From positions 62,001-126,000 of IMG/VR virus record IMGVR_UViG_3300029983_000007: DNA of 64,000 bases; one strand, 5' to 3'. The notes below the pieces were generated by a model that ran no database searches, was not told the DNA's origin, and worked only from the letters and a program-made list of their open reading frames with translations. The translations under genes and the position numbers were made by a program. Each line of letters opens with the position of its first letter. Positions within the stretch are counted from its first letter, which is position 1. The stretch is from a virus. Positions 1 to 63,775 of the stretch are shown one piece after another.

Positions 1-108
1 ATCGAATAACATTTTTTTAACATCTTCAGCGCATTTAGGTTCCATTGGAAAAATAACTACAAAGCTACTTGATGATGAATTACCAACAAATCCCGTTCTA
101 ATTTTCAT
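1..108 (-). CDS. SNSSSSSF-leader protein, partial (cut by window edge)
   Basis: Reading leftward from an ATG at 108, the first 36 codons begin MKIRTGFVGNSSSSSF and stay open to the window edge, so only the N-terminus is present. This is the seventh member of the leader family found through 5059. It carries Gly where the others have the first Ser of SNSSSSSF. After the leader it reads VVIFPMEPKCAEDVKKM, unlike any other member. Function unknown. Confidence 0.8.
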   Translation of the reverse strand, partial: MKIRTGFVGNSSSSSFVVIFPMEPKCAEDVKKMLFD

Positions 109-266
109 ATTTTATCTTTTTTATCATTTAAATCTATTGTAATATCAGATTTTCTAAAAATTGCTTTAATTATTTATGTTATTATACCACCAGTAATAGA
201 AATTAATGAAATACAACCTACAAATATCCAAAATCCTGATGTTACATATTTTAAAAATTATAACAT
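105..266 (-). pseudogene. decayed small membrane-protein gene
   Basis: One frame from the ATG at 266 runs 54 codons to a TGA that overlaps the ATG of the next gene, but TAA stops interrupt it at codons 3 and 28. Between them lies a hydrophobic stretch (FWIFVGCISLISITGGII) that would be a membrane segment, followed by a charged tail. A host-type promoter sits just upstream at 292-321. I read this as a dead gene, because TAA is a genuine stop everywhere else in the window. Confidence 0.35.
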
Positions 267-291
267 ATAATTTTATTATTTTTTTTTTTTG

Positions 292-321
292 CAAATTTAC
301 TAAAATTATTTGATAATACAA
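292..321 (-). promoter_or_regulatory. Bacteroidota-type promoter
   Basis: Leftward TTG (319-321), 19 bases, then TAAATTTG (292-299), matching TTG-N19-TAnnTTTG. It sits 25 bases before the ATG at 266 and could drive the leftward transcript towards the leader gene at 1-108. Confidence 0.6.
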
Positions 322-989
322 AAATTTATTGTCAAATAATTATTATGAATTTTTTTTATCTCACACAATTTATCTTTTCTTTTGTATACAGGATTACACA
401 CTAGGCATATAAGACCGTGTTTTTTTGTATTCCACATCATCTGATAATCACCTTTTTGTTTGCATTTAGGACATGATTCGTTACTTTCTGAACCTATAAC
501 TTGATAATCTAATGAATAATAATCATTATCAAAAGAATAAAATTCAGAGTCTCCATCAAGTAAACTGTTTATGCTATACCATCCATCGTCATTATCGTTA
601 TATTTTTGTAGTATAATTTTAAGTTCTGATTTAGCATCTTCTGATAATTTAGTATTATATTTCCATAAATCCCAATCTTCATTATTACATGTTGAAATTA
701 AATAGCAATCTGCAACTTTTTTTATATAAGTATCATAATTGCAACTTTGAAATGTTATTGCCTGATTCTCATCTAAATTTTGTAAAAAATTTAGATATTT
801 ATCGTGCTCATTTTTTCGATATTCATCCTGTTTTTTATCTCCACCTCCATAATCTCCATAATCTCCATATTCATCATATTTTCTATTAATCATATATGTA
901 GCAAGTTCACGTACACTTTTAAAATTCTTATCTGATATTATAAAACTACTTGATGATGAATTACTAACAAATCCAGTTCTTATTTTCAT
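306..989 (-). CDS. SNSSSSSF-leader protein with C-terminal zinc ribbon
   Basis: 227 residues. It starts MKIRTGFVSNSSSSSFII, followed by a Tyr/Asp/Gly-rich low-complexity stretch (about residues 40-52) and an acidic middle. Near residue 171 a CPKC and about 20 residues later a CLVC form a four-cysteine zinc-ribbon-like knuckle, which the other family members lack. Zinc ribbons often bind nucleic acid or protein, but the role here is unknown. It is the last of several leftward leader-family genes. Confidence 0.85.
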   Translation of the reverse strand: MKIRTGFVSNSSSSSFIISDKNFKSVRELATYMINRKYDEYGDYGDYGGGDKKQDEYRKNEHDKYLNFLQNLDENQAITFQSCNYDTYIKKVADCYLISTCNNEDWDLWKYNTKLSEDAKSELKIILQKYNDNDDGWYSINSLLDGDSEFYSFDNDYYSLDYQVIGSESNESCPKCKQKGDYQMMWNTKKHGLICLVCNPVYKRKDKLCEIKKIHNNYLTINFCIIK

Positions 990-1008
990 TTTCTATTATT
1001 TTCTATTA

Positions 1009-1311
1009 TTAACAATATGTCGTACCAGTTATCAATTCAACTTCACTAATATCAACATTTAATGTGTCTGCTACTAATTTAGATTTTTCTATTATATCTG
1101 ATATCGATGTTGCACTATCACTTAACTCTTCACTTCTTGATATTATATAACCAACAATATATTCGTAATTACTATTTTCAACATTAATTACTTCAATATT
1201 ATTGTCAAATCCTTGTTCAATTTCATCTGTAGTGCAATTTGCTCTTTTGATACCAATTACCACAAAGCTACTTGAACTTGAATTACTCACAAATCCTTTT
1301 CTTATTTTCAT
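1009..1311 (-). CDS. SNSSSSSF-leader protein, 100 aa
   Basis: Starts MKIRKGFVSNSSSSSFVV and continues into an acidic, mostly polar domain of about 80 residues with no recognised motif. It lies 13 bases downstream of the next leader gene in the same leftward run. Outside the first 18 residues it does not resemble its neighbours. Function unknown. Confidence 0.85.
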   Translation of the reverse strand: MKIRKGFVSNSSSSSFVVIGIKRANCTTDEIEQGFDNNIEVINVENSNYEYIVGYIISRSEELSDSATSISDIIEKSKLVADTLNVDISEVELITGTTYC

Positions 1312-1324
1312 ATTTTCTTATTTT

Positions 1325-1786
1325 TTATCCATTTCTACCTGCGCCAAAATAAACTTCTGATTTATTTAAGTCTAACCCTGATTTTTCACTATAAAAAGCA
1401 TTATAAACTTTTTTGTCATTATTCTCAAAGAATGACATATCAATATCATAATCAATATCATCATAATCAGATGTCATAAAATCTGAATCACCTTCATTAT
1501 TGCATATATTAACAACTAAAAATAAATCTTCATCTTTACAATCTTTAGTATCTAACGAAGCATTTGTTTGAAATGACTCTACATAAATTTTATTATTGTT
1601 AAAATGTATATCATAATTACCGCTTTCTTTAATATTAGATAACGTTAATACTTTAACATAATAATCCAATTTAATATTATTATCTTTTGTGTATTGTGTA
1701 AATTCGTTGTAATCATTAATCTTGGCTATACCAACAATAAAACTACTTGATGATGAATTACTTACGAAACCATTTCTTATTTTCAT
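1325..1786 (-). CDS. SNSSSSSF-leader protein, 153 aa
   Basis: The open frame extends to 1837, but I place the start at the ATG at 1786 because it begins the family leader MKIRNGFVSNSSSSSFIV. The longer start would also overlap the end of the IMPDH C-terminal gene. The body is acidic (runs of Asp around residues 115-125) and ends in GAGRNG. No known domain seen. Confidence 0.82.
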   Translation of the reverse strand: MKIRNGFVSNSSSSSFIVGIAKINDYNEFTQYTKDNNIKLDYYVKVLTLSNIKESGNYDIHFNNNKIYVESFQTNASLDTKDCKDEDLFLVVNICNNEGDSDFMTSDYDDIDYDIDMSFFENNDKKVYNAFYSEKSGLDLNKSEVYFGAGRNG

Positions 1787-1799
1787 ATTCTTATTTTTT

Positions 1800-2390
1800 T
1801 TACAATAAATGTGGTCTTGCTTCAGCAATTCCAGCATTTGTTACTTGATACCATTTTGGATTGTATTCAGATAGATTGTTAGCTCCTCCATAAGATAATG
1901 CTGAACGAACTCCATAAATTAATCCTTCTATTACAAATCTTACTCCACCTTTGAATGGTATAGTTGTTGACTCTCCTTCTACATTTCTCTCAGCTTGACC
2001 ATGAACAGTTTTAGTTTCCAATGATGCAGAGCCTCTATAGCGTTTATATAAACCATTAGGACTCTCTATAACCTTACCTGGTGATTCTTCTGTTCCTGCT
2101 AATAGAGAACCTAACATGATTGTTGATGATCCTAATGCAAGAGCTTTAGAAATATCTCCACTTGATCTAATTCCACCATCAGCCATAACTGGTACTGTTG
2201 CTACATTTAAAATTTCTATTAAACTTGTCACATTTGGAACACCAAATCCTGTCTTAATCCTTGTTGTACAAAGAGAATTATGAACAACAATACCATTTAT
2301 ATTATACGAATGTGTTTTTTCTACTGTTAAATCATAAACTTTGCCTGTATAATTCTTTTTCTCAATGCTTTTTATTTCTACTAATTTCAT
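1800..2390 (-). CDS. guaB: IMP dehydrogenase, C-terminal half with split-intein C fragment
   Basis: Residues 1-38 are an intein C-terminal fragment ending in the splice motif VVHN followed by Ser39. The extein then begins SLCTTRIKTGFG, the IMPDH active-site cysteine loop, and continues to the C-terminus (158 residues). It must be trans-spliced to the N-terminal half encoded at 2502-3371 to make an enzyme. The fragment closely matches my memory of the published environmental split intein IMPDH-1. IMPDH oxidises IMP to XMP for guanine nucleotide synthesis. The predicted spliced protein is about 348 residues and lacks the CBS pair of cellular IMPDH. Confidence 0.92.
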   Translation of the reverse strand: MKLVEIKSIEKKNYTGKVYDLTVEKTHSYNINGIVVHNSLCTTRIKTGFGVPNVTSLIEILNVATVPVMADGGIRSSGDISKALALGSSTIMLGSLLAGTEESPGKVIESPNGLYKRYRGSASLETKTVHGQAERNVEGESTTIPFKGGVRFVIEGLIYGVRSALSYGGANNLSEYNPKWYQVTNAGIAEARPHLL

Positions 2391-2512
2391 ATTATATCTT
2401 TTAATTTTTTAATAAAACTTCCATCATTTATCTCATTCTCCCAAATTCTAATTAATTTAAAATTGTGTTCTAATGCAAATTTATTTTTCTTTATATCTTT
2501 TTCAAATTTCAA
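2387..2512 (-). pseudogene. remnant of Vsr-like homing endonuclease between intein halves
   Basis: Between the two IMPDH halves one frame, open from a TTG at 2512 after a TAG, encodes 41 residues. They contain NKFALEHNFKLIRIWENEI and end KKLKDII, with the TGA overlapping the next ATG. The pattern 'K..FA...nf.liRIWE.EI' is the usual C-terminal strand-helix of Vsr-like (EDxHD) endonucleases. A freestanding endonuclease of that family is known to sit inside such fractured intein genes. Only the tail remains here, with no catalytic part. Confidence 0.6.
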
Positions 2513-3371
2513 CTAAAAAATATTTATCAGTTAAATTTCCTGCTGGTATCCATTCAGCATACTCTTCAATATTTGATGAGTTAACTAAACCTTTATATTT
2601 TATATTTACAACATAAAATTCATGATTTTTTGTGCATTCTATGCCATTTATAATAATAATTTCCTCATTTCTATCAAACTCTAATTTATTTAATACTTTA
2701 TTGAGTTCTCCATTATGACTATAAACTTCATCTCCAATTTTTACATCAATTATATCAATATATCCTTCTGAAGTTTTAACTTTCATGCTAGGTGTAAAAC
2801 AGCCTCCACCAATACCACATCTTAGTCCATCAGCTCCCCAATTTTGTAAATCAATAGCTGCTTCTGATGTAGCAATATTACCTGCAATTATATCCACTCC
2901 TAAATCTAATCCTTTAATTGCTTCGATTGCTTTTTTTACATTTATGTGATGACCATGTGCAACATCAATAAGAATAACATTTACTCCTGCTTCAATTAAT
3001 GATTTGGATCTTTCTAAAAAATCTCCGTTTGAACCTACTGCTGCCATTACTGGAATTTTGTGCCTTATTTTATCTTGATTGAAAGGATCATATGAACTAT
3101 TCTCAATACTTGTAATTAATTTTTTAATTTCATTTGCCTGTTCTTCAATAGACATAAATCTATGAATACATCCTACTCCTCCTAATTGAAACATTTTAAA
3201 TGCCATTTCATGTTCACAAACTGTGTCCATGGGTGATGCTACTAATGGTATCATCAACTCAAAATTTGTCGATAATTTTGTTCTTAAACTAATTTTATTT
3301 CTATGTTTAACTTCACTGTAAAATGGTATGAGTTGAATATCATCATACGTTAACGCTATGTTATTTGTCAT
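2502..3371 (-). CDS. guaB: IMP dehydrogenase, N-terminal half with split-intein N fragment
   Basis: Residues 1-190 are an IMPDH TIM-barrel N-terminal half (ALTYDDIQLIP, PLVASPMDTV, GGVGCIHR, DVAHGH, AGNIAT), ending at GIGGG just before the catalytic loop. Residues 191-289 are an intein N fragment: Cys191 starts CFTPSMKVKT, then the GDEVYSHNG block and the TKNHEFYV block carrying the intein B-box-type His. No endonuclease domain or intein C-terminus follows in frame, so this is a naturally split intein whose partner is encoded at 1800-2390. The barrel has no inserted CBS domains. GMP reductase is less likely given the IMPDH-type motifs. Confidence 0.93.
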   Translation of the reverse strand: MTNNIALTYDDIQLIPFYSEVKHRNKISLRTKLSTNFELMIPLVASPMDTVCEHEMAFKMFQLGGVGCIHRFMSIEEQANEIKKLITSIENSSYDPFNQDKIRHKIPVMAAVGSNGDFLERSKSLIEAGVNVILIDVAHGHHINVKKAIEAIKGLDLGVDIIAGNIATSEAAIDLQNWGADGLRCGIGGGCFTPSMKVKTSEGYIDIIDVKIGDEVYSHNGELNKVLNKLEFDRNEEIIIINGIECTKNHEFYVVNIKYKGLVNSSNIEEYAEWIPAGNLTDKYFLVEI

Positions 3372-3390
3372 TCTTTATTTTATTTGTTTT

Positions 3391-3846
3391 TTATTTGTTT
3401 TTTGGTAGTAATAATAACTTTAGATATCTACTATTCAAATCAACACTATTGTTCATGTGTGATAATAATATTGGATGTAATTTATAACTTAAATCTGAAT
3501 CAGATATTACATCAAAGTCACCAATGAATTTTTTAAAGTTTTTCATTACACTTTTACTATCACGTATGTCAGAATTTAATATGAAATTTAGAATATTTAG
3601 AATTTCATATTCATCATTATCAATTTTCCACATTTTACAATATTCTGACCAAAAATCAGCACTATAATCTATTCTTTGTGACCTATATTTATTTTTAACT
3701 TCACTTATAAATTCATTTTTACCCAATTTATTAAAAAAAGATGTAGTCTTTTCTATTAAATAATCAGGTGATGTAGTTATAATTTTATTATCATTTAACA
3801 TAATTCCAAGATAATAAAATACATTATATGCTTGATTTTTAGTCAT
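3391..3846 (-). CDS. hypothetical protein, 151 aa
   Basis: A soluble, mixed-charge, probably all-alpha protein without recognised motifs, lying between the IMPDH N-half and a leader-family gene. It lacks the SNSSSSSF start. Function unknown. Confidence 0.75.
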   Translation of the reverse strand: MTKNQAYNVFYYLGIMLNDNKIITTSPDYLIEKTTSFFNKLGKNEFISEVKNKYRSQRIDYSADFWSEYCKMWKIDNDEYEILNILNFILNSDIRDSKSVMKNFKKFIGDFDVISDSDLSYKLHPILLSHMNNSVDLNSRYLKLLLLPKNK

Positions 3847-3852
3847 AATTTT

Positions 3853-4245
3853 TTAATAGTTATCGTTACTTACCATTTGAATATATGTGTTAATTACTCC
3901 TGTGATACCATATTTTTCAAATTTTTTACGTAATTCTTCTTCTTGTTCTGATGTACGATCTTTAAATTCAATCACTTCTCCGTCATCTAATCTTCCTAAT
4001 GATTCTCCTACTATAAGAGTATTATAGTCTTTTTCTCCAAAATAATTACCATCTACTTCAACACTAAAATCATTGTCAATTTTATTTGAAAAAAATTCAA
4101 ATTTATCATAATCATCTTCAATGTTATCAAATTCTTCGTCTTTAATGTTTAAGAATTTTGCTAACTCATAAATAGTAAGTTTAATTCCTCTTACAACGAA
4201 AGAAGAACTACTTGAATTGCTTACAAATCCACTTCTAATTTTCAT
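3853..4245 (-). CDS. SNSSSSSF-leader protein, 130 aa
   Basis: Starts MKIRSGFVSNSSSSSFVV. The serine run is encoded by AGT and TCT codons that differ from those of the neighbours, so the peptide rather than the DNA is conserved. The body is acidic (DDYDKFEFF) and ends VSNDNY. No known domain. Confidence 0.85.
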   Translation of the reverse strand: MKIRSGFVSNSSSSSFVVRGIKLTIYELAKFLNIKDEEFDNIEDDYDKFEFFSNKIDNDFSVEVDGNYFGEKDYNTLIVGESLGRLDDGEVIEFKDRTSEQEEELRKKFEKYGITGVINTYIQMVSNDNY

Positions 4246-4262
4246 ACTTTTTAATTTATTTT

Positions 4263-4703
4263 TTAATAATTTCCTCCACTTTGTATGTGAATGACATCAT
4301 TGTTTACATTTATTCCTGTTTCACACAAATATCCTTCTAATCCGTCTCCAGAATCATCTGATGCAGAGCCTTCATAATAACGATATTCTTTATTTAATAT
4401 TTTCACTAAATCTTCTCTTGGTATGTGAGGATATCCTTGATCAATTATTTCATCTATCATTTCGTCATCTGATAATTTATTACCTGAATCACAATAATTT
4501 TCAAATATATCTTTAATGCTCATTTCTTTAAGATTTCTAATCATCCAATCTGATAGTCCATTTGCAAAGTCAAATAATATTGAATTTTCATTCAAATCAA
4601 ACAACTTCATAAGAGTATCTTTTGATAATTCTTTTTCATTTTTTACAGTAACAATGAAAGAACTACTACTGCTATTACTAACAAATCCATTTCTTAATTT
4701 CAT
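4263..4703 (-). CDS. SNSSSSSF-leader protein, 146 aa
   Basis: Starts MKLRNGFVSNSSSSSFIV, followed by an acidic helical body and a C-terminal stretch rich in Gly and Ser. Its start overlaps the stop of the next upstream gene in an ATGA-type junction (4700-4703), showing translational coupling within the cluster. Function unknown. Confidence 0.85.
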   Translation of the reverse strand: MKLRNGFVSNSSSSSFIVTVKNEKELSKDTLMKLFDLNENSILFDFANGLSDWMIRNLKEMSIKDIFENYCDSGNKLSDDEMIDEIIDQGYPHIPREDLVKILNKEYRYYEGSASDDSGDGLEGYLCETGINVNNDVIHIQSGGNY

Positions 4704-5059
4704 GATTTTTTATTTAATAGTTCTGTTATTTTTTTACTATCAGCGACAACAATTTGACCGTCATCTGGTCCACCTTCTACAGTTGCTATTACATATGCAC
4801 TAATTACATCATTTAAATTATCAAAAAAATCATATTCATGATTTTTATCATACTTTTTTGAATAATCATATATTTCTTCATTGTAGAAACCCCCGTCATC
4901 AACTAGCCTTTTTAACAATTCTTTAAATCCATCTAATGGAAAATCTTCATATTCATCAGTGATCTTTTTATAGTCAACAATATCAAGAAAATTCTCAGGT
5001 AATAGAATTACAAAAGACGAGCTACTTGAGTTGCTAACAAATCCTTTTCTTATTTTCAT
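4700..5059 (-). CDS. SNSSSSSF-leader protein, 119 aa
   Basis: Starts MKIRKGFVSNSSSSSFVI. The body contains VIATVEGGPDDGQIVVADSKKI near the end and no recognised fold. It is the upstream member of an overlapping pair with the gene at 4263-4703. Confidence 0.85.
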   Translation of the reverse strand: MKIRKGFVSNSSSSSFVILLPENFLDIVDYKKITDEYEDFPLDGFKELLKRLVDDGGFYNEEIYDYSKKYDKNHEYDFFDNLNDVISAYVIATVEGGPDDGQIVVADSKKITELLNKKS

Positions 5060-5098: not shown

Positions 5099-5740
5099 TT
5101 AGTTTATTAATCTATCTATTCCGATAGCAAATCCAACTCCACCATCATATTCTCCTCCACCACAAATTTGTTTAGATGAACCTAATTTTTCGCAAGTTAT
5201 TTCAAATCCCTTACCATCTTTATAATAATCAAGTCCTCTTCTAACATCGTTATTGACAACATAATCATCAACATTAGTATTGAAATTGTTTGTTAATAAT
5301 TTCATTGCTAAATGTTGCAAGTTTGCTCCATCAGAAAGATAATCATGAGATGGATTTAAAATTTCAACTCCAAGTTGAGTGAATTGCCTATATCTTCCCG
5401 ACTGTGGTTTTTCCCCACGAAAGCATTCACAAACATAGAACAATAATACATCATTTTCATTTTTGTATGTTGTTTTAGATAGTTTTTGCGCTATTGCAGT
5501 ATATTCAGGAGCTAAACACAAATATCTATCTCCTCTATCTTTGAAATTGTACATCATGTTGTTATTTTCTTCTCCTACCTTATCTTTGAATAATTCTTGA
5601 AATTGTATAATAGGAATTTGTATTTCTTCAAAATGATATTCATCAATTAATATTTTAATCATTGAATTTATCAATTCTCTTTTTTCATTACCAACTAAAA
5701 TCCTAGTTCCTTTGTAACAAGTTTCTTTTATTATTTTCAT
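5099..5740 (-). CDS. minimal HisRS-like class II aminoacyl-tRNA synthetase core
   Basis: 213 residues that follow histidyl-tRNA synthetase order: an N-terminal KGTR block, DEYHFEEIQIPI (motif 1 region), motif 2 FRGEKPQSGRYRQFTQLGVE, the histidine-binding loop RRGLDYY, and motif 3 ending GFAIGIDRL. Cellular HisRS is roughly twice as long. Here the insertion domain is almost gone and no anticodon-binding domain follows. The conserved RPEGT block reads APEYTA. It could charge or adenylate histidine, modify another substrate, or act like the regulatory paralogue HisZ. It overlaps the next upstream gene by 4 bases. Confidence 0.85.
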   Translation of the reverse strand: MKIIKETCYKGTRILVGNEKRELINSMIKILIDEYHFEEIQIPIIQFQELFKDKVGEENNNMMYNFKDRGDRYLCLAPEYTAIAQKLSKTTYKNENDVLLFYVCECFRGEKPQSGRYRQFTQLGVEILNPSHDYLSDGANLQHLAMKLLTNNFNTNVDDYVVNNDVRRGLDYYKDGKGFEITCEKLGSSKQICGGGEYDGGVGFAIGIDRLIN

Positions 5741-6624
5741 TTATCAATCTCACTCCATTCTTTAAGTAAATTACCATATTTCCAACATTGTACAAGTATT
5801 GATCTAGCTGCATAATACATTGACCCTGATATTCCTAAAAAATCCATTTCAAATGATGTTTTGCTCGCTACTTCTTTAAGTAAATCTAAATCAATTTCTT
5901 TGTTTTTTGATATTGCTTCTGACTGCATTAATTTAGCCCATCCTTCAGCATATTCAAATATACAATTACCATAAGAGTCAGTATTATTGGACTTCCAATC
6001 TTCCCAAGATTTTTCATCTAATAGTTCAATACTAATTCCTTTTATTTTTTCTTTATATTTTCTTTTTGTTTCAACTTCTTTTTTATGTTCTTCAATTCTT
6101 CTTTTTATTGATTCCTCTTCAGATTTTTTTAATTTTTTCTCATAATCATTTTTAGTTTTATCATCATATTCATCATCACATATCGGACCAATTTTAGTCC
6201 ATTTCATAAAATGAGCATCATTATAATACTTATGTAAATTATTGAGATTTGTGTTTTTGTCAATTAAACAAATGATACCATTAAAATCAAAGCTACAAAT
6301 TAAATTGTTTGCAATAGAAAACTTTTTTGCTTCTTTTGAAGTGTAATCAAAATCATATCCTAGCATAACTTGCATTCTCACTCCTGAAGTAGAATTACTA
6401 AGAATTTCTAAAATTTTTTCTTCTTCACTATTGATGATTAAGTTATTAAGAACTTTTAATTTCAATTTTCTATCAATATCATTATTAACACAGAATGTTA
6501 TATACTCTCCATATTCACATTCATAATAACTTGAAAAATTTATATTATTTGATATAAGATATTTAATTAAAATATAATTTTTATCTTTTTTATCTTTTAT
6601 TGTATATGTGAAATATTTATTCAT
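5737..6624 (-). CDS. hypothetical protein, 295 aa, central coiled coil
   Basis: Starts MNKYFTYTIKDKKDKNYIL. A highly charged Lys/Glu helix at about residues 155-200 is a likely coiled coil, and a mixed helical C-terminal domain follows. The N-terminal third loosely resembles the gene at 6912-7355 (both contain R-K-L-K-L followed by S/K-E-E), suggesting an old duplication. It overlaps both neighbours by 4 bases. Function unknown. Confidence 0.8.
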   Translation of the reverse strand: MNKYFTYTIKDKKDKNYILIKYLISNNINFSSYYECEYGEYITFCVNNDIDRKLKLKVLNNLIINSEEEKILEILSNSTSGVRMQVMLGYDFDYTSKEAKKFSIANNLICSFDFNGIICLIDKNTNLNNLHKYYNDAHFMKWTKIGPICDDEYDDKTKNDYEKKLKKSEEESIKRRIEEHKKEVETKRKYKEKIKGISIELLDEKSWEDWKSNNTDSYGNCIFEYAEGWAKLMQSEAISKNKEIDLDLLKEVASKTSFEMDFLGISGSMYYAARSILVQCWKYGNLLKEWSEIDK

Positions 6625-9951: not shown

Positions 9952-11031
9952 TTAAATTTTATATAGAGGACAATCACGATTACAACGAATAAGGTTATTT
10001 CTAAAATTAATAGTCTTTTCGTTATTCCAAATATCATCAATAAAATTACCACATTTTAAAACATTTAGTCCTTCTTTCCAATTTTCTGTATTTGGAGTAA
10101 ATGAGCAAGGAAAATAATTTCCTTTGACATCAATATAGCTACTATAACAACTTGACTCACATGGCTCTACACATTGCTTCATTTTGTTTCTGTATTCATC
10201 TGATAATGAGTTATCTGATTCCAAATATTTTAGAAATTTGTGACTACTGCAACTATCAAATCCTATACTTATTTTTTCATCTAATGCAAATTTGCAAAGT
10301 TCATTAAACTTATCCTGTGGTAAAGGGTGAAATCTATTTTCTGCTCTACCTTTAGTTTTTAAACTTAGTAAAACTAATGCGTTAAGATTTTTTAATCTTT
10401 CATCATTTTTACAATCTTTAATTACTTGCATTGTATAGTCAAAATTTTCCAAGCAAATCATATCGTGAATGTTTACTTGTGTCATTCCTCTATCAGTTAA
10501 TTCTTTTATTGCGTTGTAACTATTGTCTTTATTATAAGATGTACCAACTGATACAGCAACTGCTCCCATTGTTTTTGATAATCTATCATACAATTCTGAT
10601 GTCATTCGTGATCCATTTATTGTTACATTAGGAACAACATCTTGAGAGCGAGTATAATCAAAAATATCCCACATATCTGGATTTGAATCAATGTCTGTTA
10701 TTCCAAATGCTACCTGAGTTACAGTTAAAGGAAGCTTAGAAAAAATGTTTTTATATGTGTCTAATGACATATATTCACCATCTTTATTGTTGCTCTTGTA
10801 GCAAAATGAACAGTTTTGTTTACACGCTGTGTCAATTTCAATATCAGCAATTTCAGGTAATCCTATTTCTAAATCACCATCATCATCTTCTGTTTTACCC
10901 CATCTGGCAAAAAACCCTGTTTTTTTGTTAAATAAGAAATTGTAGTTTTCTGATTTTAAAATTTTAACATCTTTATTATCTACAATTAGTGCTTCTTCAC
11001 CGTTTGAAAGTTTTAATTTAGTTTGTTTCAT
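9952..11031 (-). CDS. radical SAM protein with SPASM-like C-terminus
   Basis: 359 residues. The cluster motif CKQNCSFC (CX3CX2C) near residue 90 would hold the SAM-binding 4Fe-4S cluster. The C-terminus has many cysteines (CSS, CVEPCESSC, GNYFPCSF, LKCGN, CNRDCPLY) typical of SPASM-type auxiliary clusters used in peptide or protein modification. The substrate is unknown, and no obvious precursor peptide lies beside it. It is coupled by a 4-base overlap to the small gene at 11028-11285. It could instead act in tRNA or metabolite modification. Confidence 0.85.
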   Translation of the reverse strand: MKQTKLKLSNGEEALIVDNKDVKILKSENYNFLFNKKTGFFARWGKTEDDDGDLEIGLPEIADIEIDTACKQNCSFCYKSNNKDGEYMSLDTYKNIFSKLPLTVTQVAFGITDIDSNPDMWDIFDYTRSQDVVPNVTINGSRMTSELYDRLSKTMGAVAVSVGTSYNKDNSYNAIKELTDRGMTQVNIHDMICLENFDYTMQVIKDCKNDERLKNLNALVLLSLKTKGRAENRFHPLPQDKFNELCKFALDEKISIGFDSCSSHKFLKYLESDNSLSDEYRNKMKQCVEPCESSCYSSYIDVKGNYFPCSFTPNTENWKEGLNVLKCGNFIDDIWNNEKTINFRNNLIRCNRDCPLYKI

Positions 11032-20867: not shown

Positions 20868-22742
20868 TTATTTTATTTCCTCAAAATCCACGTCTGTTAC
20901 ATTTTCAGAATCATCTTTTTTGTCAGATGAATTGCTTTCATTCGTTGACTGATTTTTTGATTCTTCATAAAGTTTACCACTAATGTTTTGCCAAACATCA
21001 TTAAGTTCTTTGGTGTATTTATCAATATTATCAACATTTTGAGTTTTGTGAGCTTCTTTAAGATTATCAAGTTTAGAATTCAATTCAGTTTTGTTTTCTT
21101 CATTCAATTTATCACCAAATTCTTCAATTTGTTTTTCAGTTTGAAAAATCATTGAGTCAGCTTGATTCAACTTATCAACTTTTTCTTTTTCTTTCTTATC
21201 AGCATCAGAATTTTGTTCAGCTTCCATTTTCATTCTTTCAATCTCTTCTTTTGTTAGAGATGAATTACCTTCAATCCTAATGTCATTCTTTTTTCCTGTT
21301 GCTTTATCAACTGCAGTAACTGTCAAAATATTATTTGCATCAATTGAAAACGAAATTTCTATTTGCGGTACTCCTCGTCTGGCTGGCATAATTCCATCTA
21401 AATTAAAAGTTCCCAACATTTTATTATCCTTAAACATACTTCTATTTCCAGTTGAAACATTAATCTGAACACCAGGCTGATTGTCAGTGGCTGTACTGAA
21501 TATTTGTGTCTTAGTTGTAGGAATTGTTGTATTAGCCTCTACCATGACACTGGCTACACCGCCCATACTCTCCAGTGAGAAGTTTAAAGCTGTAACATCG
21601 AGTAATAAGATGTCAGTTGTATCACCAGCAAGAACAGATGCTTGTATAGCTGCACCTGATGCAATTGCAGTATCAGGATTAAGTGACTTATTCGCTTTCT
21701 TACCAAAATATTTTTCAATACTTTCTGACAAATATGGAATTCTAGTGCTACCTCCAACAAGTACAATTTCGTCAATATCTGAAACTTTCTTACCACTTTT
21801 ATTCATTGATGATTGAATCAATGATATTGTTTTATCAACATAGAATTGAATCAATTGTTCAAATTTAGATCTTGTTAATTTTTGAACCAAATGTTTAGGT
21901 TGTCCATCTACAGCAGTGATGTATGGTAAATTTATTTCTGTTTGTGTAGTATTAGACAATTCTATTTTTGCTTTTTCTGATGCTTCTGTAACACGTTGTA
22001 GAGCCATTGGATCTTTACGAATATCAACGCCTGTTTCTTTTAAAAATTCATCAGATATAAAATTCACAAGTGCGTCATCAATTAAATTACCACCTAAATC
22101 TAAATCACCATCAGTTCCAATAACTTCAAATAATCCGTCCTCTATATCTAAAACTGAAAAATCACTTGTACACCCACCACTATCAACTATCATATAAAGT
22201 TTACCAGTTTTATCTTTAATATTTAATGATGCTGCTGTTGGTTCAGATATAATTCTATCAACAGTAAATCCTGCTATTTCACCTGCAACTTTTGTACTGC
22301 TTCTTTCATCTGAATTGAAATATGCTGGAGTTGTTATGACCGCATTGGTTACATTTGTTCCAAGGTAATCTTCTGCTGTTTTTTTCATTTTTTGAAGGAT
22401 CATTGCAGAAATTTCTTCTGGTGAATATATTCTTTCACCAATTTTTACACCAGCCTTACCATTATTATCAACTATATCATAAGGACGTTTAAGATGTTTA
22501 ACTTCCTCATAAGTTCTACCAATAAGTCTTTTGATATTAAAAATTGTGTTTTTTGGATTTAATGCTGCTTGTCTTTTTGCAGATTCACCAACTTTAATTT
22601 CTCCTGTTTTTTCATCAAATGATACAATTGAAGGAGTTGATAGCGATCCTTCTGAATTAGGTATGACAATTGTTTGTCCACCTTCTACTATAGATACGGC
22701 TGAATTGTATGAACCTAAATCTATTCCAATAATTTTTCCCAT
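20868..22742 (-). CDS. dnaK: DnaK (Hsp70) chaperone
   Basis: A full-length 624-residue Hsp70. The ATPase domain starts GKIIGIDLGSYNSAVSIVEG (cellular forms have GIDLGTTNS) and carries YFNSDERSSTK, ISEPTAASLN and VGGSTRIPYL. The linker region reads DILLLDVT. The substrate-binding domain has NTTIPT, GERSMF-like GNRSMF and RRGVPQIEISFSID. The lid is helical, with an acidic C-terminus (DVDFEEI). It would fold or disassemble proteins using ATP. No dnaJ or grpE lies in the window. It is very unusual in a virus and may aid capsid assembly or replicate host-takeover functions. Confidence 0.96.
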   Translation of the reverse strand: MGKIIGIDLGSYNSAVSIVEGGQTIVIPNSEGSLSTPSIVSFDEKTGEIKVGESAKRQAALNPKNTIFNIKRLIGRTYEEVKHLKRPYDIVDNNGKAGVKIGERIYSPEEISAMILQKMKKTAEDYLGTNVTNAVITTPAYFNSDERSSTKVAGEIAGFTVDRIISEPTAASLNIKDKTGKLYMIVDSGGCTSDFSVLDIEDGLFEVIGTDGDLDLGGNLIDDALVNFISDEFLKETGVDIRKDPMALQRVTEASEKAKIELSNTTQTEINLPYITAVDGQPKHLVQKLTRSKFEQLIQFYVDKTISLIQSSMNKSGKKVSDIDEIVLVGGSTRIPYLSESIEKYFGKKANKSLNPDTAIASGAAIQASVLAGDTTDILLLDVTALNFSLESMGGVASVMVEANTTIPTTKTQIFSTATDNQPGVQINVSTGNRSMFKDNKMLGTFNLDGIMPARRGVPQIEISFSIDANNILTVTAVDKATGKKNDIRIEGNSSLTKEEIERMKMEAEQNSDADKKEKEKVDKLNQADSMIFQTEKQIEEFGDKLNEENKTELNSKLDNLKEAHKTQNVDNIDKYTKELNDVWQNISGKLYEESKNQSTNESNSSDKKDDSENVTDVDFEEIK

Positions 22743-61312: not shown

Positions 61313-63775
61313 TTAAATTTCATATTGTATTTCCAATATTTTATTTCTTTCATAAAATACTATTAGCAATTTGTTTGTATCTTCAAATAATTTTATTTTC
61401 GGAATACACCAACTTACACTATTTTTATTTAAAGATATTTCAGATATTGTGTAATATGTTTTATTAGTATTTAAATCTTTAATGTCAATATTTAATGACT
61501 GCAAATCATCACCATTATAATATATCATCAATTTATTTTCATTTCTATCATAACTTATTTTTATGTTATTTTTATCTAAATTGTAATCAATTATATATTT
61601 TTTAAAATCAAATAATTTAGGATTTTCTACCAATTTTGATTCAATTATTCTATCAGTTATCATTTCAGGAGTTATGTTAATAGAACATTCAAATTGTTTA
61701 TCTGTATCTTTATGCATAGGACACCAATTCCAATCACCTGGATCAAATTTATGAGTATTAAAACATCCATTACAAACATTAAAATTGTGTATATTTATGT
61801 TATTAGTTTTAAACTCACAAAAAGGATTAGAAAAACCTGACATCATTACTACTTTTTTACCTACAGCCCATGCCAACCAACTCAATCCTGAACCAATTCC
61901 AATATAGAATTCACACCATTTTAATTGATTTATTCTGTGCTCAATAGGAAAATCACCAGTGTTATCTATAATATTTTTTAGATTTGTTGATTGCTTACTT
62001 ATTGTCATAACTTTATACCCTTGCGTATTAAGCCAATCAACTAAAATTTGCCATCCTTTATTACTATCTTTACAAGGATAATGCCAATGTTTAGAGTTCG
62101 CAGTTGAGAATTGCCCAATACAAATATATTTTTCTTTAATTGGTCTAACGCCTTCAGGAATTTCAATCTTTGGTATTATTTCTTCATATTCTAATCCAAG
62201 AATATCACTTGCTGTTTTTTGTAATGGTATGGTTTTATAATCAATCGGATTTTTATTACTATCAAATGGTGAATACCATCCAATTTTATATTTAGCATAT
62301 AAATTTTCTGTGTTTGCTTTTCCTGGATCAACAAATGTTATTTCTGGGTATTGTTTTATAAACCAACTATTCCAAAATGTTGAGCACTGAATATTACAAT
62401 TATGTTTTTTTCTAAATTCTTCTACATATGGAAACCATGCTAATGTATCTCCAATTGATTTACTTTCTATTGTTATTAAAACATTTCTATTTGTTAAATC
62501 AAAATCATGTGTAATTAATTCGTTATTATGAAATATATTAATTTTATACTCCTTATAACATTCATTATTTGTACGACACCAATTATTGTTATTTAATGTT
62601 TTTTTGTATATAATTTCTTTTGTATTTTTATCTATTATTTCAACATCAAACTCAGATTTTACATCTCCAAGAATTTCTACATTTGCACCGTTAATAAAAC
62701 TAATATTATAATCATATTGTGGTTCTATTAATTTTTGAATTGTTTTATTAAGATTAAGTGTGTCATTATATTCTGTTGTTAATCTTGATTCAAATGTTAC
62801 ATTATTATCTATTCTTTTAATATTAAAATTATCCAAAATTCTTTTAGAATCTTTATCAACATTCATTGTTAAATATTTAATATTTTTGCATGAATCATAA
62901 GTATCTAAATATGTATTAAGATTATTTAAATAAATAGGCATATTATATGATGTTGCTTCTTTAACAGCTAACGGGTTCAACTCTAATATAGAAGAATGAA
63001 TTAACAAATCAGATGCTTGGTAAAATGTATCAACGTCACTTCTTTCTCCATGTATTATACAATTAATTGGTTTATTATTTAACAAAGGTTTCCAATAATC
63101 TTCAAAATTTTCTGCTTGATTACCAACAAAGTGAAATTGTATTTTATAGTCTTTTAATTTTTCAGCTATTTCAAATACATATCCTTGATTTTTTCCTTTT
63201 GTGAATAACCCAACATTTAAAACATGAAAATACTCAGAATCAAATTTTAATTCGTCAATAGCTAATCCTTTATTTGCTATTAATTTTTCAGATGGATATT
63301 CAATAATAGAAGATGGAATATTGAATTTGTTATATTGTAGTTGTGAATATTTTGATACAAATAAAAATTTATCTGGGAAATATTTTTTTTTGCTAATATC
63401 AAAAGTTGAAGTATGAGTAGTTTCTATTATTTTATATGGTCTGTCATTTCTATATAACCAATTTATATGCTCATTTCTCATTCCAAAAATAAATATTTCT
63501 GGTATTTCTTCCATATGAATAATATCAGGATTGATATTATTAATTATATCTTCAAACAAATCACGCTTTGTTTCATTTTCATTATCTCCAAGCGAAATGA
63601 ATTTATCTCCTAATAACTCAATAAGTCTATTCCTCTGCACAACAAAACTCCAAGAAATTTGTCTATATTCAATAAGATATACATCATTTGTTTTTATTAA
63701 ATATTCTACTCTTTTAAGAGCTACCATCGGAAGTCCTCCTGTAGATCCGTGAGGAATTATTATAAGTATTTTCAT
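61313..63775 (-). CDS. two-domain glycosyltransferase: GT4-like plus TibC-type heptosyltransferase
   Basis: 820 residues. Residues 1-350 form a GT-B (GT4-like) enzyme: HGSTGGLPMVALKRVEY, ETTHTS, FVSKYSQ, LFTKGKNQGYVFEIAEKL and SSILELNPLAVKEA. After a linker, residues about 425-740 match bacterial autotransporter heptosyltransferases (TibC type): RNVLITIESKSIGDTLAWFP, PLQKTASDILGLE, GQFSTANSKHW, GSGLSWLAWAVGKKV, and cysteines CNGC...C...C for an iron site. TibC adds heptose to serines of secreted adhesins. Here the likely target is the virus's own fibre. The fusion is unusual. Confidence 0.85.
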   Translation of the reverse strand: MKILIIIPHGSTGGLPMVALKRVEYLIKTNDVYLIEYRQISWSFVVQRNRLIELLGDKFISLGDNENETKRDLFEDIINNINPDIIHMEEIPEIFIFGMRNEHINWLYRNDRPYKIIETTHTSTFDISKKKYFPDKFLFVSKYSQLQYNKFNIPSSIIEYPSEKLIANKGLAIDELKFDSEYFHVLNVGLFTKGKNQGYVFEIAEKLKDYKIQFHFVGNQAENFEDYWKPLLNNKPINCIIHGERSDVDTFYQASDLLIHSSILELNPLAVKEATSYNMPIYLNNLNTYLDTYDSCKNIKYLTMNVDKDSKRILDNFNIKRIDNNVTFESRLTTEYNDTLNLNKTIQKLIEPQYDYNISFINGANVEILGDVKSEFDVEIIDKNTKEIIYKKTLNNNNWCRTNNECYKEYKINIFHNNELITHDFDLTNRNVLITIESKSIGDTLAWFPYVEEFRKKHNCNIQCSTFWNSWFIKQYPEITFVDPGKANTENLYAKYKIGWYSPFDSNKNPIDYKTIPLQKTASDILGLEYEEIIPKIEIPEGVRPIKEKYICIGQFSTANSKHWHYPCKDSNKGWQILVDWLNTQGYKVMTISKQSTNLKNIIDNTGDFPIEHRINQLKWCEFYIGIGSGLSWLAWAVGKKVVMMSGFSNPFCEFKTNNINIHNFNVCNGCFNTHKFDPGDWNWCPMHKDTDKQFECSINITPEMITDRIIESKLVENPKLFDFKKYIIDYNLDKNNIKISYDRNENKLMIYYNGDDLQSLNIDIKDLNTNKTYYTISEISLNKNSVSWCIPKIKLFEDTNKLLIVFYERNKILEIQYEI

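Follow-up and report, generated by a model that had tools for sequence, protein, structure and literature searches.

What described systems most resemble a phage locus in which a radical-SAM enzyme accompanies proteins that share little but their first 16 residues? The radical-SAM/SPASM maturases are likewise encoded with short substrates that share an N-terminus, and SuiB and similar maturases work on leader-guided substrates. Anaerobic sulfatase-maturating enzymes (anSME) act on a serine or cysteine of a whole protein, and the maturation pattern in the sulfatase substrate is [CS]x[PA]xR. In phage T4, the capsid-targeting sequence is a single N-terminal sequence present on several unrelated small internal proteins, and a prohead protease site, [LIF]xE, lies behind the signal. 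The window analyzed here is the 64,000 nt stretch from positions 62,001 to 126,000 of the 330,208-base viral record IMGVR_UViG_3300029983_000007. In its first 5059 nucleotides, seven minus-strand genes start with M-K-x-R-x-G-F-V-S-N-S-S-S-S-S-F (Table 1), and a reading of the sequence alone had already located all seven starts correctly. A 20-residue motif query of the entire record found seven places, every one of them inside this cluster. The tag and the predicted radical-SAM/SPASM enzyme encoded nearby probably form a previously unrecognized viral protein-modification system.

Table 1. Tagged genes and the candidate modifying enzyme in the window
Feature	Position	Strand	Length (aa)	Family	Remarks
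Motif gene	1..108	(-)		body family 2	first 36 codons, cut by window edge; FVGN in place of FVSN; MKIRTGFVGNSSSSSFVV; whole gene in L039
Motif gene	306..989	(-)	227	body family 6	CxxC pairs
Motif gene	1009..1311	(-)	100	body family 16	
Motif gene	1325..1786	(-)	153	body family 7	length counted from motif Met
Motif gene	3853..4245	(-)	130	body family 11	
Motif gene	4263..4703	(-)	146	body family 4	starts MKLR; AlphaFold2 model made
Motif gene	4700..5059	(-)	119	body family 8	
Predicted radical-SAM/SPASM enzyme	9952..11031	(-)	359	phrog_7293	proposed maturase of the motif proteins

The motif is common across phages, from which 546 distinct genes were collected (501 in a strict subset), and is almost missing from cellular genomes. 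All 546 score above 12 on a motif matrix, higher than any of 47,628 shuffled N-termini (maximum 10.8), a comparison that checks rarity and is not an independent discovery, the matrix having been derived from the strict motif genes. Conservation peaks at S11 (546/546), N10 (545/546) and S12 (544/546), position 7 tolerates L or M, and position 9 tolerates A or G. In one body family of 29 members, all 12 invariant columns lie within the tag. The sequence-only reading had proposed that selection acts on the peptide, the serine run being written with different synonymous codons; this holds across the 501 strict genes, in which both AGY and TCN codons are used at each of the six serine positions. 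Recent gene conversion alone, the alternative it had raised, is insufficient, because any two of the seven window genes differ at 7-20 of their first 54 bases and at 1-4 of 18 residues. The position of the tag is equally strict. In 494 of the 501 strict genes the start codon precedes GF by exactly five codons (-5), and the other seven have one added residue, ATG-[Ala/Gly/Thr], which, judging by the residue gained, should permit Met removal. The window gene at 1325 agrees with this fixed-start rule, since its longest frame runs from 1837 and its motif Met lies at 1786. When 143 motif representatives were compared with PHROGs, phrog_7397, listed as of unknown function, matched 135, and all other matches were single; neither Pfam nor PADLOC contained a family matching more than one representative (best E 0.0014 and 1e-4, respectively). 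A short-peptide tblastn search with the motif in phages and plasmids gave no matches, probably because low-complexity filtering masks the serine run.

Behind the tag, no relationship among the window proteins is detectable. The seven window genes represent seven different body families, between any two of which the best profile-profile probability is 4.2%, and 403 bodies from the collection fall into 114 clusters with no common residue pattern found across them. Cysteine is absent from 16% of the bodies. They are also acidic: of 541 motif bodies, 97% carry a net negative charge, compared with 49% of 1,436 other open frames at the same loci, although these frames may include non-genes. The unrelated and the acidic character of the bodies had both been noticed in the window by the sequence-only reading. 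Among proteins of at least 60 aa, motif proteins are 64-390 aa long with a median of 134, and RiPP precursors are usually shorter. By eye, many tails have similar G-rich C-terminal patterns. Could the motif simply be the conserved start of a single fast-evolving fold, with the bodies as diverged paralogues, a possibility close to the "first strand of one common fold" that the sequence-only reading had named as fatal to its own view? In the AlphaFold2 model of the one family examined (family 4), residues 13-21 do form the first strand, three of 136 family pairs exceed 10% profile probability (94.8%, 45.5% and 43.1%), and the similar G-rich ends would fit common descent. The same model, however, predicts residues 1-5 and 7-10 to be disordered (pLDDT <50), so that the refuting case named by the sequence-only reading is borne out by half in this family. 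The remaining family pairs give no signal above 10%, and seven related records, as well as L100 and L240, contain homologues of the bodies that lack the tag. We regard a single fold as very unlikely. A fold search with the modeled protein found no chain with Z of 5 or more among 990 aligned of the top 1000 from Foldseek, and a BFVD search found no match at E 1e-3 or better.

The enzyme encoded at 9952..11031 is, by its predicted structure, of the radical-SAM/SPASM kind and most like the peptide maturases. Like SuiB, SkfB, the 5why sactipeptide maturase and PqqE, it has a CxxxCxxC cluster motif and, in the model, the same overall fold, and its C-terminus appears SPASM-like. Across the 72 members aligned, C74 and C77 of the cluster motif (C70/C74/C77) are invariant and C70 is conserved in at least 90%. 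The window protein scores 31.1 bits against PF04055 (cut-off 29.5), a family exceeding its curated cut-off in three of five enzyme members, the other two having no listed match. With the SPASM family PF13186 it reaches 20.0 against a curated cut-off of 21.5, which two of the five members exceed, and the alignment of the model with SPASM maturases extends to residue 358. The AlphaFold2 model (pLDDT 95.7) has as its nearest PDB folds precursor-bound SuiB (Z 24.7) and SkfB (Z 23.4), and it matches the anSMEcpe peptide complex with Z 20.0. As a point against a peptide substrate, it also matches viperin-like enzymes (Z 19-20) and MoaA (Z 17), whose substrates to our knowledge are not peptides. A PDB search with the enzyme sequence profile retrieved repeat proteins and a weak BtrN match. 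Unlike the described maturases, the enzyme is phage-encoded and its sequence falls far below every NCBIfam equivalog cut-off among the matches listed (best 32.5 bits against 380); its family, phrog_7293, is also listed by PHROGs as of unknown function. A further difference is that phage genomes hold several folded, unrelated motif proteins in place of the one short precursor of the maturases.

What ties this enzyme to the tag is genomic association. Among 80 viral loci retrieved with the enzyme alone, some of them near-identical to each other, strict motif genes occur in the flanks of 69, near-strict ones in three, and motif genes elsewhere in the record in four, so that 76 of 80 have the tag; the remaining four are fragments of 14.7-38.5 kb. 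Tag proteins resemble RiPP precursors in that a candidate tailoring enzyme accompanies them. At these loci the 301 strict motif genes all lie on the strand of the enzyme, a weak indication by itself because same-strand neighbors are common in phages, and at the locus L109 the enzyme and the motif gene closest to it have opposite strands. Unbiased clustering of the neighbors of motif genes ranked the enzyme first, at 66 loci, with the next family at 14. That count took in two intein-bearing dUTPase-like genes, merged through an intein in one enzyme, and an HMM recount gave 64 of 184 motif loci. In the forward direction, the enzyme is found in 48 of 63 large motif records, one of which (that of L146) counts as positive with the enzyme gene in two separate pieces only, one having an internal stop. 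Of the 15 records without a phrog_7293 enzyme, seven belong to one lineage, in which the absence looks genuine. Across 50,697 phage records, the two motif proteins of RB16 are found in 174 and 175 and the enzyme in 173, with nearly equal genus tallies (compared as tallies), although the 170-odd isolates come mostly from one related phage group. The co-occurrence holds although about 20 kb separate the motif genes from the enzyme in RB16, as they do in RB43 and KP15 (phages of E. coli and Klebsiella). As a point against the link, Kpn35c1 has its enzyme split into two frames and nevertheless retains one motif gene.

The large records with tag and no enzyme would be expected if the tag were a docking, targeting or encapsidation signal for another phage protein and the enzyme a fellow traveler in an accessory module. 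The T4 capsid-targeting sequence offers a precedent, since it too heads several small phage proteins that are otherwise unrelated. However, the tag differs from it in sequence and in having a radical-SAM companion, only 3 of 546 motif proteins have the T4-type [LIF]xE within residues 1-18 (114 of 546 within residues 1-30), and the 76/80 co-occurrence would be left unexplained. We therefore think such a signal improbable.

We consider it fairly likely that the phrog_7293 enzyme recognizes and modifies the first ~16 residues of the unrelated phage proteins that have the phrog_7397 tag. The phage-encoded enzyme would recognize x-K-x-R-x-G-F-V-S-N-S-S-S-S-S-F at the N-terminus, and the modification would fall in the flexible tail ahead of the folded body, most likely at the N10-S11-S12 core or adjacent to it, so that many different proteins would bear the same chemical group. 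The tag might instead be a recognition leader only, at which the enzyme docks before modifying residues in each differing body, as in leader/core RiPPs. This would account for the genomic link equally well and would suit the leader-guided substrates of SuiB and the other best fold matches. Against it, the bodies of the 114 clusters lack a common residue pattern, 16% have no cysteine, and the complete conservation of the N-S-S core appears to go beyond the needs of docking; we judge it unlikely. The modular leader of the sequence-only reading is upheld in both its modularity and its selection at the peptide level, and of the roles it had suggested, a modification site gains support from the accompanying enzyme, which it had not noticed, while no support was found for encapsulation or protease cleavage; as a whole, that interpretation is partly supported.

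Several known chemistries and signals fit the tag poorly. A three-residue cyclophane at F7-V8-S9 is disfavored because positions 7 (L, M) and 9 (A, G) vary. The tag is serine-rich and the enzyme shares its radical-SAM/SPASM fold with anSME, but, unlike anSME substrates, none of the 546 motif proteins has [CS]x[PA]xR within residues 1-30, which disfavors formylglycine formation. The glycine loop of glycyl-radical proteins, R[VIT][CSA]G[YF], is likewise found in 0 of 546 over the same residues. A lipobox pattern occurs in 3 of 546 and a twin-arginine export pattern in none.

More tentatively, the system could be a protein-modification regulon, in which one radical-SAM enzyme places the same new chemical group on as many as about a dozen proteins of unrelated structure in each genome, always equally far from the mature N-terminus. 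Newcomers would join by gaining the tag, and the reaction at N-S-S would be new radical-SAM chemistry on folded proteins. If so, phages would be marking an entire set of their proteins by radical chemistry, any genome could be screened for such proteins by 16 residues alone, and a tag both short and portable, with a dedicated enzyme, would become available. In the open-access literature, we found no paper for the motif strings, for the names phrog_7397 and phrog_7293 or for two RB43 locus tags, and no record or paper pairing the two families; virion proteomics of Jiaodavirus phages (PMC13119998), in the part of the article available, has no bearing on the tag. Two viral protein families, present in the laboratory phages RB16 and RB43 and in more than 100 Klebsiella phages, turn into a testable enzyme-substrate pair that is amenable to study in ordinary E. 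coli phages. As a minor observation, one of the single PHROGs matches among the 143 motif representatives was to a "head-tail adaptor" (8e-10).

Seven neighbouring genes of the window, which all lie on the minus strand, open with M-K-[IL]-R-x-G-F-V-[SG]-N-S-S-S-S-S-F, a shared start that the sequence-only reading had described. The window spans bases 62,001-126,000 of its virus record, and a motif query over the whole 330,208-base record found seven places, every one inside this cluster. The start of the protein was matched by phrog_7397, which has no assigned function in PHROGs, in all six window genes tested, and Pfam and NCBIfam gave the window motif genes no match above cut-off. The same reading had proposed that selection acts on the peptide, and this is borne out by the use of both serine codon classes at all six serine positions of the tag and by the differences between pairs of window motif genes, which amount to 7-20 of 54 bases versus 1-4 of 18 residues. 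In one family of bodies, the body being what follows the tag, 12 of 12 invariant columns fall within the tag (n = 29 proteins). When each possible start in the window and the collected loci was scored, 546 different motif genes emerged, along which conservation is uneven: S11 is present in 546, N10 in 545 and S12 in 544, position 8 is V or I in all, and G6 and F7 are replaced in 21 and 14, respectively.

A DNA pattern containing the start codon matched at least 119 stretches of viral contigs, and in 2.9 million viral contigs a second pattern, without start codon and with AGY-AAY-TCN coding fixed, matched 109. The start-free pattern matched five stretches in an 84,980-species genome collection, all five in metagenome-assembled bins, and two of these loci (L127 and L130) carry the radical-SAM enzyme discussed below too. 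The motif is essentially viral, as far as AGY-AAY-TCN coding samples it. Of 133 distinct places matched by the start-free pattern and not truncated at an edge, 130 have a start codon exactly five codons ahead of GF; the same spacing is found in 494 of 501 strict motif genes. The seven exceptions, from five loci, all have ATG followed by Ala, Gly or Thr and then Lys or Arg. Methionine aminopeptidase can remove the initiator methionine before Ala, Gly or Thr, but not before Lys or Arg at position 2, so the predicted mature N-terminus would keep its distance in these seven proteins, and the distance of the tag from that terminus would be constant, exceptions included.

Behind the tag, the proteins are diverse. 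BLAST clustering of 403 complete bodies gave 114 clusters, 83 of them singletons; among the 17 larger body families, profile probability exceeded 10% in three of 136 pairs, and no Pfam family was matched by more than one of 143 motif representatives. Bodies also occur tagless: seven related records have, adjoining the tagged gene, a frame of 158 aa that begins with MKIEPSSFVVSK in place of the tagged copy's MKIRNGFVSNSSSSSFVVIK; further tagless homologues lie in loci L100 and L240. The AlphaFold2 model of the protein encoded at 4263-4703 (29 sequences, mean pLDDT 82) has pLDDT below 50 at residues 1-5 and 7-10, and residues 13-21 form the first strand, which suggests that in this family the conserved tag starts out as a tail and enters the fold with its second half.

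When other open frames of at least 90 aa were clustered, one family was the dominant neighbour, at 66 motif loci versus 14 for the runner-up. An HMM search of 184 motif loci, of which many are short, found it in 64, with the nearest motif gene on its strand in 63 of these. The cluster cysteines C70, C74 and C77, together with matches over cut-off to PF04055 in three and to the SPASM domain in two of five members tested (the window protein being slightly below for SPASM), identify it as a radical-SAM enzyme whose C-terminus is SPASM-like. Each of the 72 members in the alignment matches phrog_7293 (function not assigned in PHROGs), and matches to NCBIfam equivalogs are weak, the window enzyme lying far under their cut-offs. 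The structure closest to the enzyme model (pLDDT 95.7, pTM 0.93) is SuiB with bound precursor (Z 24.7, 311 residues, 3.6 Å), followed by SkfB (Z 23.4), the sactipeptide maturase 5why (Z 20.6) and peptide-bound anSME (Z 20.0); viperin-like enzymes rank after the maturases (Z 19-20). The enzyme is a member of the radical-SAM superfamily with a predicted maturase fold, and of none of the named equivalogs tested.

Features of the window around the motif genes
Feature	Position	Strand	Remarks
Seven motif genes	1-5059	minus	
IMP dehydrogenase, two frames	2502-3371 and 1800-2390	minus	within motif cluster; both frames together span 1800-3371; intein-like stretch at frame junction (PF14890, 33.3 bits, cut-off 35.8)
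Protein without tag, 151 aa	3391-3846	minus	within motif cluster; no match in Pfam
Histidyl-tRNA-synthetase-like gene	5099-5740	minus	short, 213 aa
Tad4-type gene	5737-6624	minus	adjoins motif cluster; C-terminal part (residues 201-292) matches Tad4, a Thoeris defence inhibitor (PF25186, 2.7e-21)
Radical-SAM enzyme	9952-11031	minus	strand as motif genes; 4.9 kb from motif cluster
Hsp70 gene	20868-22742	minus	complete, 624 aa

Does the enzyme lead back to the tag? In a search by enzyme alone, with the best 80 of 145 relatives used, strict motif genes were found in the enzyme flanks at 69 loci, a near-strict one at three more, and motif genes elsewhere in the same record at four further loci, giving 76 of 80, some of which are near-identical (e.g. 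L230-L232 and L197-L200). The background for this figure is rarity (109 motif and 145 enzyme stretches in 2.9 million contigs) rather than matched control contigs. All 301 strict motif genes of this test share the enzyme's strand, and among the 72 rows of the enzyme alignment, identity between pairs is 46% at the median and 37% at the lowest. The loci without a motif gene are L203, L209, L236 and L265, on records of 14.7, 37.8, 24.6 and 38.5 kb; L265 starts, at the contig end, within a body of motif family 3.

For the opposite direction, 63 motif records with lengths from about 92 kb upward were chosen by eye (those of L173 and L181 were among the records left out). Sixteen were already known to carry the enzyme, and the other 47 were searched with three more; 34 of these 50, or 32 of the 47, contained it, giving 48 of 63. 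One positive, the L146 record, has the enzyme gene as two separate pieces only, one with an internal stop. Median motif genes per viral record, counted by hand, were 5 with the enzyme (33 records) versus 1.5 without it (16 records). Five of the 16 enzyme-negative records contain other radical-SAM proteins, which do not resemble the enzyme family except for one weak match of 24 bits. Absence from one single record is no proof, as completeness values were not given. The 15 large enzyme-less records include seven of one lineage (L017, L077, L167, L169, L177, L182 and L187), all of which have just one motif gene, adjoining a tagless copy, and in this lineage the absence looks real.

The E. coli phages RB16 and RB43 each have two motif genes, which lie at 67-73 kb, whereas the enzyme gene lies at 90-94 kb; the RB43 enzyme is a two-piece match in the IMG/VR record and a one-piece match in HE981739. 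Among 50,697 phage records, the first motif protein was found in 174, the second in 175 and the enzyme in 173, with equal genus tallies except in Klebsiella (114, 115 and 110), a comparison of totals and genus tallies rather than of individual records. Enzyme matches outside the RB16-type group are few and include one Vibrio phage; the match in Salmonella phage Arash is weak (22% identity over 55%). Kpn35c1 is a mixed natural case: its enzyme is split into two frames and the region carrying the first motif gene in its relative Rpl1 is missing, yet the second motif gene is retained (PMC9960720).

What might the enzyme do to the tagged proteins? It resembles maturases in which a peptide enters the radical-SAM barrel, and such a peptide-binding enzyme would need a tail of this kind, flexible and basic, with its N-terminal end fixed and its N-S-S core invariant. 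Recognition is probably via K2, R4 and the free N-terminus, with hydrogen abstraction at or near N10-S11-S12, leaving a tail that may be oxidised, crosslinked or altered in another way. Because the bodies are so diverse, the purpose of the proposed modification should be general, for instance to anchor, stabilise or activate accessory proteins. Like known maturase-substrate systems, this one would join an enzyme and its substrate; unlike them, it has many unrelated proteins, all tagged, for a single phage enzyme, a new form of the theme. No publication linking the enzyme to tagged proteins was found in the open-access literature searched.

The Tad4-type neighbour, a single case, hints at an accessory, perhaps counter-defence region. 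IMPDH/GMP reductase-like genes, named by eye, rank second among the neighbours, at 14 loci, and a protein similar to the 151-aa product, matched by eye, neighbours motif genes in nine. A von Willebrand A domain protein lies near motif genes in RB43 (L192:6720-8939, by domain search), and similar proteins were seen by eye at L026:2737-4966 and L088:8229-9078. At L132:3664-4662, L140:8723-9266 and L171:6129-6672, inteins were seen by eye, at the cluster motif of one enzyme copy and in dUTPase-like genes. Outside the window, its own record has a second radical-SAM-like frame (G000:C1:306064-306594, plus strand; 26.7 bits, below the Pfam cut-off). In the 547,943-base L052 record, the enzyme frame (G024:C1:87437-88465) contains one in-frame TAG; in this phage TAG may code for an amino acid, or the enzyme gene may be broken.
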